NCBI GenBank assembly: GCA_002104905.1
Contig: MCFE01000732.1
Coordinates: 1 to 41,634 of the forward strand
Reading direction: 5' to 3'
DNA length: 41,634 nt
Origin: Basidiobolus meristosporus CBS 931.73
Lineage: Eukaryota; Basidiobolomycota; Basidiobolomycetes; Basidiobolales; Basidiobolaceae
The notes beneath the pieces were generated by a model. That model saw only the letters and a program-made list of their open reading frames with translations. It was not told the origin of the DNA and did no database searches. Positions 35,089 through 41,634 of the stretch are shown one piece after another (positions within the stretch are counted from its first letter, which is position 1; every line of letters starts with the position of its first letter). Made by a program: the position numbers and the translations under genes.

Positions 35089-35140
35089 TGCCTCTACACG
35101 AAGACGTTAACAATCATCGGTTTCATTAACCCTAGTCAAC

Positions 35141-36049
35141 ATGAGAGTGCCATTCTACCTCGTAGCTGCTTTATCTCTGTGCTTCCTGAACTCCGTGGCT
35201 GGCCACATGGAGATTCAATCACCCGCGCCTCGTAGATCAACCTTTAGCAAGTACTATAGGTCAAAAGGAAATATTGATTACGATATGAACGGTCCATTGG
35301 GTGTATTTCCTTGCAAAGGCTACAAGCCAGGGCCGGTTGAGTACACATACAAGGCTGGTGACTCTGTGAAAGTTCAATTTGCCCCGGGAAATACGCACCG
35401 AGGGGGACATTGTCAATTTGCACTCTCGTATGACAACGATAAAACATTCGTCGTTTTGAAAACGATTGTCCGTAACTGCTTCAAAAGTGGCCTTACATTC
35501 GACGTTCCAATTCCGGCCACTGCACCTCCCAGCGAGCGAGCTACTTTAGCCTGGACCTGGGTTAATGCGGAAGGTAATCGAGAGTACTACATGAATTGCA
35601 TTGATATCACTATAAACGGCGGAATCCCTGGTGGCAAGATTACCGGACCAAAACTTATGATTGCGAATCTTCCGGGGTACCCTACCATCCCAGAGATGGA
35701 TATTGGTGAAGGTGATGGTCGCGAGTTACTGGATAAACGTCCAATCATCACCATTGAGGGTGCCGCTGGTGGTTCCAACACCAATCTGCCTGTTCATATT
35801 AAGCCATCAGCTACTGGCAAGTCGACTGCAACTATGAATAAACCAACCCACACGCTCCCGATCAAGCCCACCATCACAAGTAATCCGGCAAGAGGCGCAT
35901 GCACTGGAATTCCAGCATGGAATTCCCAAACTGCGTATCATGGCACTCAGAAAGTGACATTAAAGAAGCATTTGTGGCAAGCCAAATGGTGGACACAGCA
36001 CGAAACTCCGGGTGAACAGGGAGTCTGGATAAGCTTGGGTGCGTGCTAA
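35141..36049 (+). CDS. secreted AA11-like lytic polysaccharide monooxygenase with CBM5/12
   Basis: Copper enzyme that oxidatively cleaves polysaccharide; AA11 members act on chitin. Single exon, 302 residues. The signal peptide MRVPFYLVAALSLCFLNSVAG is followed directly by His22, which becomes the N-terminal histidine-brace residue (mature HMEIQSPAPR). The second copper His is H86 in GNTHRGGHCQFALSYD, at the position of the AA11 HGGGSCQ motif. The axial Tyr region is NREYYMNCIDITING. Paired cysteines (58, 91, the NC in RNCFKSG, and MNC) fit disulfides. A Ser/Thr/Pro/Lys linker (about 215-250) leads to a chitin-binding module of the CBM5/12 type (about 254-302; AWNSQTAYHGTQKVTLKKHL then WQAKWWTQHETPGEQGVW). 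The second domain supports chitin as substrate. It has its own TATA box and AATAAA. Confidence 0.9.
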   Translation: MRVPFYLVAALSLCFLNSVAGHMEIQSPAPRRSTFSKYYRSKGNIDYDMNGPLGVFPCKGYKPGPVEYTYKAGDSVKVQFAPGNTHRGGHCQFALSYDNDKTFVVLKTIVRNCFKSGLTFDVPIPATAPPSERATLAWTWVNAEGNREYYMNCIDITINGGIPGGKITGPKLMIANLPGYPTIPEMDIGEGDGRELLDKRPIITIEGAAGGSNTNLPVHIKPSATGKSTATMNKPTHTLPIKPTITSNPARGACTGIPAWNSQTAYHGTQKVTLKKHLWQAKWWTQHETPGEQGVWISLGAC

Positions 36050-36650: not shown

Positions 36651-37163
36651 TCAAGAAGTATAGAACTTCTCTAATAAGTAATCTAATTTATGTTTTGTTT
36701 CATCTCTAATGTTTGTTTCAATAAAGTAAAGCTCATCAGGGGTAAATATAAAATTCAATGGTTTTGGGGGAAGTACAAATTGTAGATGTTTCTGATCAAT
36801 ATAATCCAAGACTGGAACCCAGCCTGGGATTAGGTGTAGTAGGAAAGGTGTGTGGACTTGTAAGTAGCTCTGCCACATAGATCTTAGATGGTCCTGAGCC
36901 AGTAGTCTTGGTTTCTCAGCTTTTTGAAGTTTTGAAGCAAGCTCTGTTACTACAGCAGAGCCAACCAGGGTGTGCCAGCAAGAAGATTTCAGGGAGGAGT
37001 TAGATTGAAGCCATTGTTTGATGGAGGGGTTATGTGATTTCTGAAGTTTGACTAGGAAGGAAGCACGGAGATAGACCATTTGGATTTGGTATGGGTAGAA
37101 CCCAAAGGCCCTGTTAGTTGCATGGATATAGGGAGATACTGGAAGATAAGGTACCAAGGATCT
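36651..37163 (-). pseudogene. ORF2 C-terminal fragment of the truncated LINE
   Basis: About 170 codons, open to a stop at 36651, matching the post-RT C-terminal region of the intact neighbour's ORF2. Shared blocks in order include VPHLP/VPYLP, PY-H then GFxPYxI, YLR, SCW-T, SEKP/AEKP with L-x-W-Q-x-YLQ-HTPF, LPP-PLN, and T-x-EL. By eye identity is about a third to two fifths, so it is a different family or subfamily, not a recent duplicate. Endonuclease and RT catalytic domains are missing. It cannot be functional by itself. Confidence 0.85.
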
Positions 37164-37184
37164 GGGTTAGGGTTAGGGGGGGGG
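37164..37184 (+). repeat. interstitial telomeric repeat plus G tract between LINE copies
   Basis: GGG, then two TTAGGG units (37167-37178), then six further G, lying exactly between the truncated 5' end of the inner copy and the 3' end of the outer copy. Orientation matches the terminal telomere. It marks a former chromosome end onto which the outer element was added. Confidence 0.92.
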
Positions 37185-37188
37185 ACAG

Positions 37189-37202
37189 TCACCAACAGGT
37201 GA
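37189..37202 (-). ncRNA. 3'-terminal RNA stem-loop of the full-length LINE
   Basis: On the element strand TCACC-TGTT-GGTGA, a 5-bp stem with a 4-nt loop, placed 4 nt before the C tract that merges into CCCTAA repeats, and just after AATAAAGATT. Same position and stem as in the truncated copy. Confidence 0.55.
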
Positions 37203-37206
37203 AATC

Positions 37207-37212
37207 TTTATT
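37207..37212 (-). terminator. AATAAA near the LINE 3' end
   Basis: AATAAA on the element strand, 24 nt downstream of the ORF2 stop and 4 nt before the terminal stem-loop. The older copy has GATAAA at the equivalent place. May direct 3' processing of the element RNA. Confidence 0.4.
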
Positions 37213-37236: not shown

Positions 37237-40005
37237 CTACTGTTGTAGCTTTGATACAAGAGTGTGTAGCTGAGGGGAATTTGTAGGTAAGTTAATAAGA
37301 AGTGATGATAGTTCTTCAGTGCTCAAGACACTGTTCAGTGGGAAGGGGGGTAGCAAGAGAGGTAAGAATGACTTGTGAACAACATTAATGAGGGGAATGT
37401 GATAAGGATTGATATTCATCATAAAGGGAGTGTGCTGCTGCAGATATTGCTGCCAAAGGTCTGTCAAGTACTTCAGGTAGGCCAGCTTGGGTTTTTCTGA
37501 CTGCAGAATAAATTCAGCAAACTTCTTGACTTCAGGATCTCCAAGTATAGTTCTCCAGCAGGAGCCAGGTGTTGTGTGGTGTGTTCTCTTCCAGGCCTTA
37601 ATCAGTGGGTTGTTGCAGTTGTGAAGTCTGAGGTATAATCTGGTTCTAAGGTAGAGAAGTCTGATCTTATAGGGCATAAACCCAAAAGCACCAAGAATAG
37701 CATGTCTGTAGGGGCATTCAGGCAAATGAGGCACCAAGGAGGTAATGCACCATACTGCAAACTTGTCAAGCTTAGTGCAGTCTCTAGAAGTAAGAGAGAG
37801 AAGTGGTAAGCCAAATTCCAGGACAGGGAAAACAAACTGCTTGAGTAGAAGGAGGCAGCTTGGAGCTGAAGTTGTAGGAGGAGTAACAGCCAGTAGCTTG
37901 TGGAGTGCCTGTCTTGCCAGGATAATTCTCTTCTTCAGGTGTGCTCCAGAGTCTAGTCCAGTAGGAAGGAAAGGAAAGCCAAGATATGTAGCAGAAACCT
38001 GAGCAGGTAGAGTGGAGTTCTCCAAGTTGATGGGAGAGCCCAAAGGTACTGTCTTTGCAATGGAAAGCTGGAGATTATTCTTCTGCAGATACTGGTGGAT
38101 GGTCTGGGAGTCTTGTTGCACATTGGAGGAGGATATTCTGATGTCATCAGCAAAGAGAGTAACCAGGCAGTCAGCTGAGAGTCTTGGGAAATCATTCAGG
38201 AAGATGGCAAACAGTATAGGACCAAGCACAGAGCCTTGAACCACTCCATTAGGAACTGAGAACACAGCTGATTGCTCACTTGGGTGCAGAATTCTTGCTT
38301 GTGGATCCAGAAACAGAGACCTGACAAGGAGGGTGAGAGAGGTACTGGAGAAGCATTGCAACTTGGACCAAAGCAGATTTCTGTCAACTGAATCAAAGGC
38401 CTTAGTAATATCAAACAGAACAGAGGGATACTTGCACTGGAGAGAGTGATCTTGGCTAAGTATGACTGCATATTCCAAGGAGAGGCCAGGAACAAAGCCA
38501 AACTGTGCAGGATGAAACTTGAGGGAGTCAGAGTAGAGCTCCTGAGCAAGCAGAAGCTCAAACACCTTTCTGCAGGTGGGCAGCAGAGATATTGGCCTGT
38601 AGAAGCTAGGATCCAGGTGCTTTCCTTTACCCTTGTACAGTGGCAGAACATTTGCAAAGGACCATTCCTCAGGAGTAGAAAGCTGGGCTGAGCATTGCTG
38701 AAACAGTGGAAGCAGAAGTGCAGACATGGCCTTGGTACTAGTCTTCAGAAGCTCATAGGAGATTGTGTCCACACCTGGAGCAGTAGAGTTGGGAAGCCTC
38801 TTGAGCACATTATGGATTCTCCTTTGATCAAGTGCAAGTGGGATGGGCAGAGTCTTGAAGTCAGGATGAAAGCCAGGAGTTGAGTACTGCTTTGTAGAGA
38901 AGAAGATGTTAGCCAGCTGTTCTGTTGAAGGTAACTTCCTGGAAGAGGGCCTCATTGCCCTGTAGAGTCTTGATACTGTTCTTGTTATAGAGTTGGAAGA
39001 TTGCAGAGGCAAAGAACTCATAATATGATCCCAGAGCTGAGTATGCAGAGTGTGGTGAATTGCCTGGGAGTGGTGTATTGCTGTCAGGAGGAGTTTCTCT
39101 GTTTTTGGGTTAGGGAAACTCAGGTAGCTTTGTTGCAGGGCTGAAACAATGGATTCCCATTTTCTTGAGGTAACAGCAGTAGTCTTGCATGGCAGTGAGA
39201 GGGAGGCAGACACCAGAATCAGATGCTTCACAAAGAGCCAGGCATAGTTGAGATCATCTGGCAGAGAAAGTAGCAAACTGGCAAGCTTCAAGTAGTTCCC
39301 AAAGTCTTTCTTCTGATTCTTGGTAGCTTTGTGGGTGAGCACAGTAAGTTTTGGCAGCTTCTTCTTCACAACTGGTTGCATAGAAAGGGACCAGGCTGGG
39401 TGGTCAGAGGCTCTCAAGGATCCTAACTCAGCTCCAGAGAATTGCTTAACTTCATTCACAAAGTAGAGGGCAGCAGCAGAAGGGCAGATCCAGTCAACAC
39501 ATCTTTTCTCAGATTGAGCACCTAGTGATAGCAGGTGGCTTTCTCTCAGGAAGTTCAGTAGGAATGTAGACCTTGGCTTCATTCTTGCAGTCAGAGTAGT
39601 CTTGTTCTCAGGATGGGGAATGTTGAGATCTCCAAGCAAGATAACAGGTGTTGATATAGATTGCTGGTATTGCTGAACCTTCTGGCATATAACTTGCACT
39701 TCCTGAAGGGCAAGACTTGGAGGCAGATAGCAGAGCACAAGACTGATAGTTGGCAACTGGAGAGCAGCACAGTAAGGGGAGTAAAGAGGAACACAGAGCT
39801 GAGGAGTATTGATGGTAGAAGAGATGAAGCAGATAGAGAAGGTATTCTTTGTTCTAGGAGTAGAAAAGCAATATAGATTAGTCAAAAGTATAGAAGGTAG
39901 CTGAACATCAATCAAACACAGGAGGGAAAATCTTGAAAGAAGTCTCTCTAGAGTTGGTCTTGATGGCTGTATGCTGTTGCAGTTAAGCAACAGAACTTCA
40001 GGTAG
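37237..40005 (-). CDS. LINE ORF2: APE-type endonuclease and reverse transcriptase
   Basis: Open frame immediately after the ORF1 UGA, 922 codons to its stop. It has no AUG until residue 137 of the frame counted from 39990, beyond essential endonuclease motifs, so it needs readthrough or non-AUG initiation. Endonuclease motifs (39990 numbering): LNCNS (3-7), CLID (25-28; Asp where Glu is usual), CYLPP (87-91), GDLN (120-123), VDW (D166), SDH (195-197). RT motifs: LPLYKGKG, YRPISLLPTCRKVFE, LFDITKAFD (catalytic D527), QGSVLGP, FADD (D615, D616), then a thumb-like region. The C-terminal extension lacks an evident CCHC or RNase H. Function: nick or prime at telomeric DNA and copy the element RNA. 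No frameshift or internal stop, so the copy may be active. Confidence 0.93.
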   Translation of the reverse strand, partial: LPEVLLLNCNSIQPSRPTLERLLSRFSLLCLIDVQLPSILLTNLYCFSTPRTKNTFSICFISSTINTPQLCVPLYSPYCAALQLPTISLVLCYLPPSLALQEVQVICQKVQQYQQSISTPVILLGDLNIPHPENKTTLTARMKPRSTFLLNFLRESHLLSLGAQSEKRCVDWICPSAAALYFVNEVKQFSGAELGSLRASDHPAWSLSMQPVVKKKLPKLTVLTHKATKNQKKDFGNYLKLASLLLSLPDDLNYAWLFVKHLILVSASLSLPCKTTAVTSRKWESIVSALQQSYLSFPNPKTEKLLLTAIHHSQAIHHTLHTQLWDHIMSSLPLQSSNSITRTVSRLYRAMRPSSRKLPSTEQLANIFFSTKQYSTPGFHPDFKTLPIPLALDQRRIHNVLKRLPNSTAPGVDTISYELLKTSTKAMSALLLPLFQQCSAQLSTPEEWSFANVLPLYKGKGKHLDPSFYRPISLLPTCRKVFELLLAQELYSDSLKFHPAQFGFVPGLSLEYAVILSQDHSLQCKYPSVLFDITKAFDSVDRNLLWSKLQCFSSTSLTLLVRSLFLDPQARILHPSEQSAVFSVPNGVVQGSVLGPILFAIFLNDFPRLSADCLVTLFADDIRISSSNVQQDSQTIHQYLQKNNLQLSIAKTVPLGSPINLENSTLPAQVSATYLGFPFLPTGLDSGAHLKKRIILARQALHKLLAVTPPTTSAPSCLLLLKQFVFPVLEFGLPLLSLTSRDCTKLDKFAVWCITSLVPHLPECPYRHAILGAFGFMPYKIRLLYLRTRLYLRLHNCNNPLIKAWKRTHHTTPGSCWRTILGDPEVKKFAEFILQSEKPKLAYLKYLTDLWQQYLQQHTPFMMNINPYHIPLINVVHKSFLPLLLPPFPLNSVLSTEELSSLLINLPTNSPQLHTLVSKLQQ

Positions 40006-40008
40006 TCA
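39974..40008 (-). promoter_or_regulatory. putative stop-codon readthrough cassette (UGA-CUA plus hairpin)
   Basis: The ORF1 stop is TGA (40008-40006) followed by CTA, the known leaky UGA-CUA context. After a 12-nt spacer comes CTGTTGC (39993-39987), loop TTAACT, and GCAACAG (39980-39974), a perfect 7-bp hairpin. Zero-frame continuation gives LPEVLLLNCNS, joining ORF1 directly to the endonuclease. These parts match documented readthrough signals; use here is inferred. Confidence 0.7.
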
Positions 40009-41430
40009 GGCAGAGGTTGTAGCTTCTTCAGAGGCAGCATTGATAATGTGACCTGCAGAGTCCCAGAGCTCTTCAAATGGTGCATCACTTAAGTCAGCAA
40101 GGAGGGAAATGGCATGATTCTTGAGGAAGTATGCCACATCATAGGAGGGGGCTTGTCTCTTGATGGCAGCAAAGAAAGACAGAATGGCAACATGGGCTGG
40201 AGGCTTGTTGAACAGTAGAGAGTCAGAGGATTCAGATTCTTCAGGCACTATCTTGAAGTCAGTTTTCAGCCAGTTAAGGTTCTTCTCCACAAAGGCAACA
40301 AATGGGTCAGCAATGTTTTGGTCTAGGATAACCTCCAGAATCTTCCCTTTTCTCCAGGCCAGGTTGACAATTCTTGAGAGCTGAATATTGCATGCCTTGA
40401 GTGCTTTCCTGATGTTGGAAATGGGAGTCCAGGGAACTTGCTTCAAGTACACCACAGTCCAGGTAGAAGCTTGTGGTAGGTTTGCTGGGGGCTTGTAAGT
40501 CCTTCTGTGTTGCAATGGAGCTGCAGTAGTCAGATTGGAGTCCACATTCTCAGTAGAAGGTTTTCTTGATGTGTCTTGCTGAATAGTACTGGAGCTGGAT
40601 GTGCTGATAATTCTTGCTAGAACCTTGCCTGCATAGGTCTGAGGTATAGCTGAGGTGACTGTAGAGGTGTTGGCAGCTGGTGCAGGTGGAGAGGCAGAAA
40701 CTGAAGCAGGAACTGAGGTCACCTGGGAGAAGGTAGTGGAAGCAGGTTTTCTGGGAGGAACAGAGTTCACTATCCAGTAGTTCTGTAAAACACTGGAGTA
40801 GCTTTTCTGTGGAACAGGATCTTGCTCTTGAACAGGAACAGAAGCAGGAGGCTGGGGCTGAGCAGTAGTGGTAAGGCAGTGGCACTCCAAGGAAGCTTTT
40901 TGCAAGGCATCTCTGGCAGTTTTCAGGGCAGTATTGGCTTCATTCTTGAGCTTCTTGCATTGAGCATCCAGTCTCTTGTTTTCAATAGCCAGGGCAGTAT
41001 TGGCAGCCTCTAAATCAGCAATTCTCTTCTCAACTGCAAGGAATCTCTGAAGAAATGCATCAGTAGAAATGCTGGCATCTGGAAGAGCAGTGGCAGGAAT
41101 AGAGTCCATTGACAGTGGGCTTCTTGGAGGCAAGGAAAGTGGACTGGCAGATTCAGGCACAAAAGGAGATATCCTGGCAGGAGGAGAAGGAGTATCCAAG
41201 GCAGTAACAGAGGCAATTCTTGTTGGTGAAGCAGCAGCAGGGGAGGCAAGCCTGTTCAGAAACTGGGTAGGAGAGAGTGCTTGAGGAGAGGGAGTCTTCA
41301 GCTTGGCAAGCATGTCTTCCATCAGAGTGATACCAATATTCCTGGTGCATTTGCAGAGAAAAGTAAGCTTCCTGAGTCTGCCAGCTCTTCCATTCCTTCT
41401 GATAGTTCCTTTGTTTCCACAGTTGGGCAA
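40006..41430 (-). CDS. LINE ORF1: coiled-coil, RNA-binding-like protein
   Basis: Open from the telomere junction to the UGA at 40006. The first AUG is at 41322 (MEDMLAKL), giving 438 residues from there; upstream codons encode PNCGNKGTIRRNGR and FLCKC, resembling a zinc-ribbon remnant. Order: Pro/Ser/Ala-rich segment, coiled coil (about residues 125-180 of the open frame: FLAVEKRIADLEAANTALAI...), a long Ser/Thr/Pro/Gln linker, then a folded region (about 320-410; STWTVVYLKQVPWTPISNIR...) that resembles the RRM-like domain of fungal LINE ORF1 proteins, and an Ala/Glu-rich end. No CCHC knuckles were seen. Likely packages element RNA. Reads in the same frame into ORF2. The true start is uncertain because the 5' end meets telomere repeats. 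Confidence 0.85.
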   Translation of the reverse strand: MPNCGNKGTIRRNGRAGRLRKLTFLCKCTRNIGITLMEDMLAKLKTPSPQALSPTQFLNRLASPAAASPTRIASVTALDTPSPPARISPFVPESASPLSLPPRSPLSMDSIPATALPDASISTDAFLQRFLAVEKRIADLEAANTALAIENKRLDAQCKKLKNEANTALKTARDALQKASLECHCLTTTAQPQPPASVPVQEQDPVPQKSYSSVLQNYWIVNSVPPRKPASTTFSQVTSVPASVSASPPAPAANTSTVTSAIPQTYAGKVLARIISTSSSSTIQQDTSRKPSTENVDSNLTTAAPLQHRRTYKPPANLPQASTWTVVYLKQVPWTPISNIRKALKACNIQLSRIVNLAWRKGKILEVILDQNIADPFVAFVEKNLNWLKTDFKIVPEESESSDSLLFNKPPAHVAILSFFAAIKRQAPSYDVAYFLKNHAISLLADLSDAPFEELWDSAGHIINAASEEATTSA

Positions 41431-41448
41431 GAAATCTTCTTGACAGAC

Positions 41449-41634
41449 TTAGGGTTAGGGTTAGGGTTAGGGTTAGGGTTAGGGTTAGGTTAGGGTTAGG
41501 GTTAGGGTTAGGGTTAGGGTTAGGGTTAGGGTTAGGGTTAGGGTTAGGGTTAGGGTTAGGGTTAGGGTTAGGGTTAGGGTTAGGGTTAGGGTTAGGGTTA
41601 GGGTTAGGGTTAGGGTTAGGGTTAGGGTTAGGGT
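41449..41634 (+). repeat. terminal telomere (TTAGGG)n
   Basis: About 31 TTAGGG units running 5' to 3' to the end of the window, so this is a right chromosome end. One unit is short, TTAGG at 41485-41489; all others are perfect. The tract starts directly against LINE ORF1 sequence. The G-rich strand orientation shows the chromosome terminus is to the right. Confidence 0.99.

Follow-up and report, generated by a model that had tools for sequence, protein, structure and literature searches.

The ORF2 enzyme of a telomere-dwelling LINE in the fungus Basidiobolus meristosporus CBS 931.73 is probably made, at about 70% by our own estimate, by readthrough of a UGA-CU(A) stop that yields a minor ORF1-ORF2 fusion, like gag-pol in some retroelements. 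Most ribosomes would end at the UGA and release the ORF1 protein. A minority would decode the UGA, in its leaky UGA-CU(A) context, as an amino acid and continue in frame, and the resulting fusion would carry the endonuclease and the reverse transcriptase. The anatomy of the junction, its recurrence across families and the coding constraint on the stretch from the stop to the first AUG are seen directly in the sequences. We infer that readthrough occurs, and at what rate, and that the fusion would be the working enzyme; readthrough could also set the ORF1:ORF2 ratio.

The window, the whole stretch of 41,634 nucleotides that was analysed, is one contig (MCFE01000732.1) of a genome of 89 Mb assembled into 1,311 contigs. 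Telomere repeats, (CCCTAA)n, close one end of it (41449..41634, minus strand) and host the element, here called family A, which lies on the minus strand and runs inward from the telomere. Its ORF1 (40006..41448, minus strand; relatives P0048-P0054) is 5'-truncated against the repeats and has TGA as its last codon; judged from the proteins, its first codons are apparently out of frame relative to full-length relatives. ORF2 (37237..40005, minus strand) comprises 922 codons and a terminal TAG (37237-37239) and encodes the endonuclease and the reverse transcriptase. The 3' tail (37176..37212, minus strand) contains AATAAAG, a TTCACC/GGTGA stem-loop and a C run, and is followed by telomere repeats. 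A 3' fragment of the ORF2 of a second family, B, lies at the same chromosome end (36651..37166, minus strand). Pfam matches RVT_1 in the window ORF2 (2.9e-24) and Exo_endo_phos_2 at 3.3e-4, below the family cut-off. The endonuclease precedes the reverse transcriptase, the order of APE-type LINEs, and the GDLN and SDH motifs are present; no Pfam match to a restriction-like endonuclease after the reverse transcriptase was found in the window ORF2, and a search among solved structures gave no match. The element is an APE-type LINE sitting in telomere repeats. Of the 30 loci L039-L068, one is internal; the other 29 are found within 11 kb of a contig end, and their 5' end faces it. One near-identical family A copy (G000:C558:96316-97248, plus strand) is placed 96 kb inside a 218-kb contig, which reflects either a misjoin or a telomere tract in the interior.

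Other repeats share this neighbourhood. The family A 5' UTR in L132 and L133 has repeated segments and telomere-like CCCTAACCCTAA before ORF1. In L132 (C833), L091 and L106 an ORF1-like frame leads directly into the LINE 3' tail, and the stretch lacks a reverse transcriptase; these are ORF1-only elements, a layout likened to that of HeT-A of Drosophila. Short repeats in L134, L135 (C518, C380) and L108 carry GGTTCAAATCC, which is taken here to be a B-box-like motif, and end in the LINE 3' tail (AATAAAGATTTCACC..GGTGACT, then a C run). They are probably telomere-inserted SINEs that borrow the LINE tail; neither ARAGORN, run on L135, nor Rfam at gathering scores returned a match. Further inside the window, 35111-36049 on the plus strand encodes a protein that looks secreted and has a CBM_5_12 match at its C terminus (4.6e-5, below the cut-off); the protein presumably resembles a lytic polysaccharide monooxygenase.

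At the junction, the ORF1 stop TGA (40008-40006) is directly followed by CTA (40005-40003), so that the candidate readthrough site UGA-CUA occupies 40003..40008 on the minus strand. The whole frame from 41448 to 37237 contains only two stops, the junction TGA and the terminal TAG. This agrees with a preliminary description of the sequence, in which the TGA of ORF1 was followed by CTA and by the endonuclease in the same frame, with no further stop. The same description placed the first ORF2 ATG at 39582, after GDLN, as is the case (39580..39582, minus strand), but numbered it codon 137, whereas it is codon 142, GDLN being at codon 125. The use of UGA as a sense codon was considered and is ruled against: over about 1,400 codons the frame has a single TGA and 17 TGG tryptophans. 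A host gene with a like stop context was also sought; the TPI gene ends in TAG.

The junction recurs in other copies of the same genome. All 57 distinct family A junctions read (55 rows minus two duplicates, plus four further) and all 22 distinct family B junctions read (23 rows minus one duplicate) have TGA-CTA in frame. The family B junction reads SESA-TGA-CTA-CAA/CAG. A third family, D, is represented by a single decayed copy, in frame with TGA-CTC. TGA-CTA is likewise present in each of the nine family A elements in which both ORF1 (513-523 aa) and ORF2 (922 aa) were found open; these came from crossing two lists of matches. The junctions read are part of larger families and were picked mostly from the best matches or by similarity to the window, the first scans having scored 40 of 161, 127 of 838, 150 of 1,194 and 87 of 470 candidates. 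Of 20 family B stretches, 13 contain the junction, one fell beyond its contig and six are without it; these six are sequence from the ORF2 or 3' end of A, ORF1-only elements, or a truncated B with the putative SINE tail joined to it. Within A and B, zero changes fall in the six junction bases where about three are expected, a weak result in a count that included a duplicate row.

The comparison between A and B carries the weight, because the copies within each family are young and represent few events. The ORF2 proteins of A and B are 47% identical over 918 residues. At fourfold sites, 85 of 213 (40%) are identical against 27% expected by composition; these sites are incompletely saturated, and therefore shared descent plays a part in the likeness of the junctions. 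Among the 93 leucines that the two families have conserved, CTA is used in both only at the leucine after the stop. Family B uses CTA at 21 of the 93, and a shared CTA, given CTA in A, has a probability of about 0.23 by usage, so that taken by itself it would lend readthrough modest support; the identity of the stop, the frame and the neighbouring codons add to it. The linker before the stop differs by an indel of five whole codons, which preserves the frame, and within this otherwise differing linker 13 nucleotides, TCTGCCTGACTAC (40002..40014, minus strand), are the same in both families. In an alignment of 3,450 positions, counting gaps, this run is among the three longest identical ones between A and B, and the other two fall in conserved ORF1 protein. 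The recurrence of stop, CTA and frame in B, at 47% ORF2 identity, is more than chance.

The sequence that follows the stop behaves as coding sequence. Codons 1-141 in A and 1-58 in B are without ATG, and the first ATGs, at codons 142 and 59, both fall inside the endonuclease. In a multiple alignment the motif LLLNCNS (codons 5-11; 39973..39993, minus strand) aligns with ILLWNANG, the first motif of other LINE endonucleases. The LINE endonuclease profile is matched by B from residue 4 and by D from residue 3, and by A over 86-157 only, the N terminus of the A endonuclease resting on the multiple alignment and on the B and D matches. The endonuclease apparently starts three to five codons past the stop, and therefore AUG initiation could not yield it whole. 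Over codons 1-141 of family A there are 21 synonymous and 18 nonsynonymous distinct changes, with changes to stop left out of the count, giving a pN/pS of 0.30 (p 0.0002-0.003, depending on the assumed transition bias). The window copy was the reference; 59 rows were found, eight gapped ones were dropped and 51 used, of which 21 span all 141 codons. Consequently, the stretch before the first AUG is under selection at the protein level, and the stop is followed, as in UGA-CU(A) readthrough genes, by an in-frame coding extension under selection. In the same region, codons 32-35 (39901-39912) read IDVQ in A, IDVK in B and ANVK in D, where other LINE endonucleases carry SETH. The glutamate of SETH is assumed to be catalytic, and it seems to be replaced in all three families.

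A hairpin after the stop had been proposed to promote readthrough. The stem CTGTTGC/GCAACAG, with a 6-nt loop, is present 12 nt after the TGA as had been noted (39974..39993, minus strand), and folds at -10.2 kcal/mol over 36 nt (z -2.56; 4 of 200 shuffles equally good) and with z -1.59 over 91 nt (11 of 200 shuffles). The folds of the B and D junctions show no stem at its place, and its arms in A coincide with the codons of LLLNCNS; the hairpin was thus rejected as a readthrough signal. Of the programmed readthrough that had been put forward, UGA-CU(A) in frame across families, the lack of an AUG and the coding constraint right after the stop hold, and the hairpin does not. Gammaretroviruses make gag-pol by readthrough of UAG with a conserved pseudoknot. 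They resemble family A in having a structural protein, one in-frame stop and then enzymes, and differ from it in that family A has UGA and no conserved structure was found just after the stop in the B and D folds.

Five close ORF2 relatives in other sequences were found among 47 matches, none of them fused to ORF1; a search with the family B ORF2 added no close relative, and none was confirmed in the viral contigs searched. Of the seven ORF1 relatives (P0048-P0054), five end in S/T-A at the column of the family A stop, P0052 (Basidiobolus ranarum) diverges before that column, and P0054 ends in SI, near the GI of family D, so that the residue before the stop varies. The ORF2 relative P0001 begins MDLLLLNCNS, which places a predicted start codon (ATG, GTG or TTG) at the junction; P0001 was read as a protein, and the codon may be an AUG. 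The predicted start of P0003 falls on a conserved leucine, which suggests that the gene predictor accepts TTG as a start. This predicted start of P0001 counts against readthrough, as do the CTC of family D, seen in one decayed copy, and the unconserved hairpin.

Translation of ORF2 might instead begin anew at a non-AUG codon next to the junction, through termination-reinitiation at the ORF1 stop or through internal initiation. This is unlikely, though likelier than the other rivals. AUG-independent translation of L1 ORF2 speaks for it, together with the predicted start of P0001 and a TGGGA at -57 in family A, which we take to be the core of the calicivirus reinitiation motif; the latter was discarded as a signal, being absent in B and at -7 in D. 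Among two-ORF LINEs, SART1, which also targets telomere repeats, has an overlapping stop-start site and L1 a spacer with unconventional reinitiation (available part of PMC5972666), and Zorro3 needs the ATG of its ORF2 (available part of PMC1965478). Family A, on the other hand, has no AUG at its junction and no spacer: no AUG overlaps or adjoins the stop in A, B or D, and no ATG occurs in their first 12 ORF2 codons. Nor do they share a near-cognate codon at one position, codon 5 being CTG in A, CTC in B and TTG in D, and separate initiation leaves the conserved frame and stop context unexplained.

Two further explanations do away with the stop or with its function. Splicing would produce an mRNA that lacks the stop, with CTGAC as branch point and the following AG as acceptor, and such an AG does follow in family A and in 17 of the 23 B rows. 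It is absent, however, in the other six, which keep TGACTA nonetheless, and the phase differs between A and B, by codons. Retrotransposed spliced RNA would also leave stop-less copies, and none of the 79 junctions reads without a stop, which makes splicing very improbable. Slighter still is the chance that the stop is mere decay, the enzyme starting at the first AUG or being dead. The window copy is indeed 5'-truncated, but all nine elements found with both frames open carry the stop, the first AUG differs between A and B and lies within the endonuclease in both, and selection acts upstream of it.

Readthrough of the UGA has its closest parallel in fungal genes with UGA-CU(A) readthrough, among them Ustilago tpi1; these share UGA-CUA, an in-frame coding extension and a fungal host and need no structure. 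According to the available part of PMC4207609, UGA-CUA alone suffices in Ustilago maydis to bring about readthrough, and of the bases after UGA the first two matter most; the CTC of family D fits this. The extension of tpi1 is a short targeting tail, whereas that of family A is an enzyme of 922 residues and a candidate for readthrough only, and CUA is followed by C in both A and B, where the same text notes G as frequent. Candida Tca2 is another fungal retroelement whose two genes are separated by a UGA; unlike family A, it is an LTR element with a purine-rich context and a predicted pseudoknot (available parts of PMC2194720 and PMC7175516). Its gag-UGA-pol junction directed no readthrough in yeast (PMC2194720, in part), a caution that a UGA at such a junction does not ensure readthrough in a reporter. 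MoTeR and FoTeR insert in telomeres with the 5' end pointing to the end of the chromosome, as family A does, but carry a restriction-like endonuclease (available part of PMC12857005) where family A has an APE-type endonuclease preceding the reverse transcriptase.

In the open-licence papers searched, as far as their available text extends, no LINE is reported to use readthrough, SART1, L1 and Zorro3 relying on reinitiation or an AUG-dependent ORF2. The mode of ORF2 translation is unsettled in many LINE lineages, and here the question is narrowed to six bases. It is somewhat more likely than not that one clade of telomere-dwelling LINEs of early-diverging fungi follows a gag-pol strategy, in which the reverse transcriptase is produced solely as part of an ORF1-ORF2 fusion and the programmed UGA-CU readthrough depends on the six-base context and no structure. 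If true, LINEs would join retroviruses and some LTR elements in rationing their enzyme by a leaky stop, and the functional reverse transcriptase would have ORF1 attached to its N terminus.
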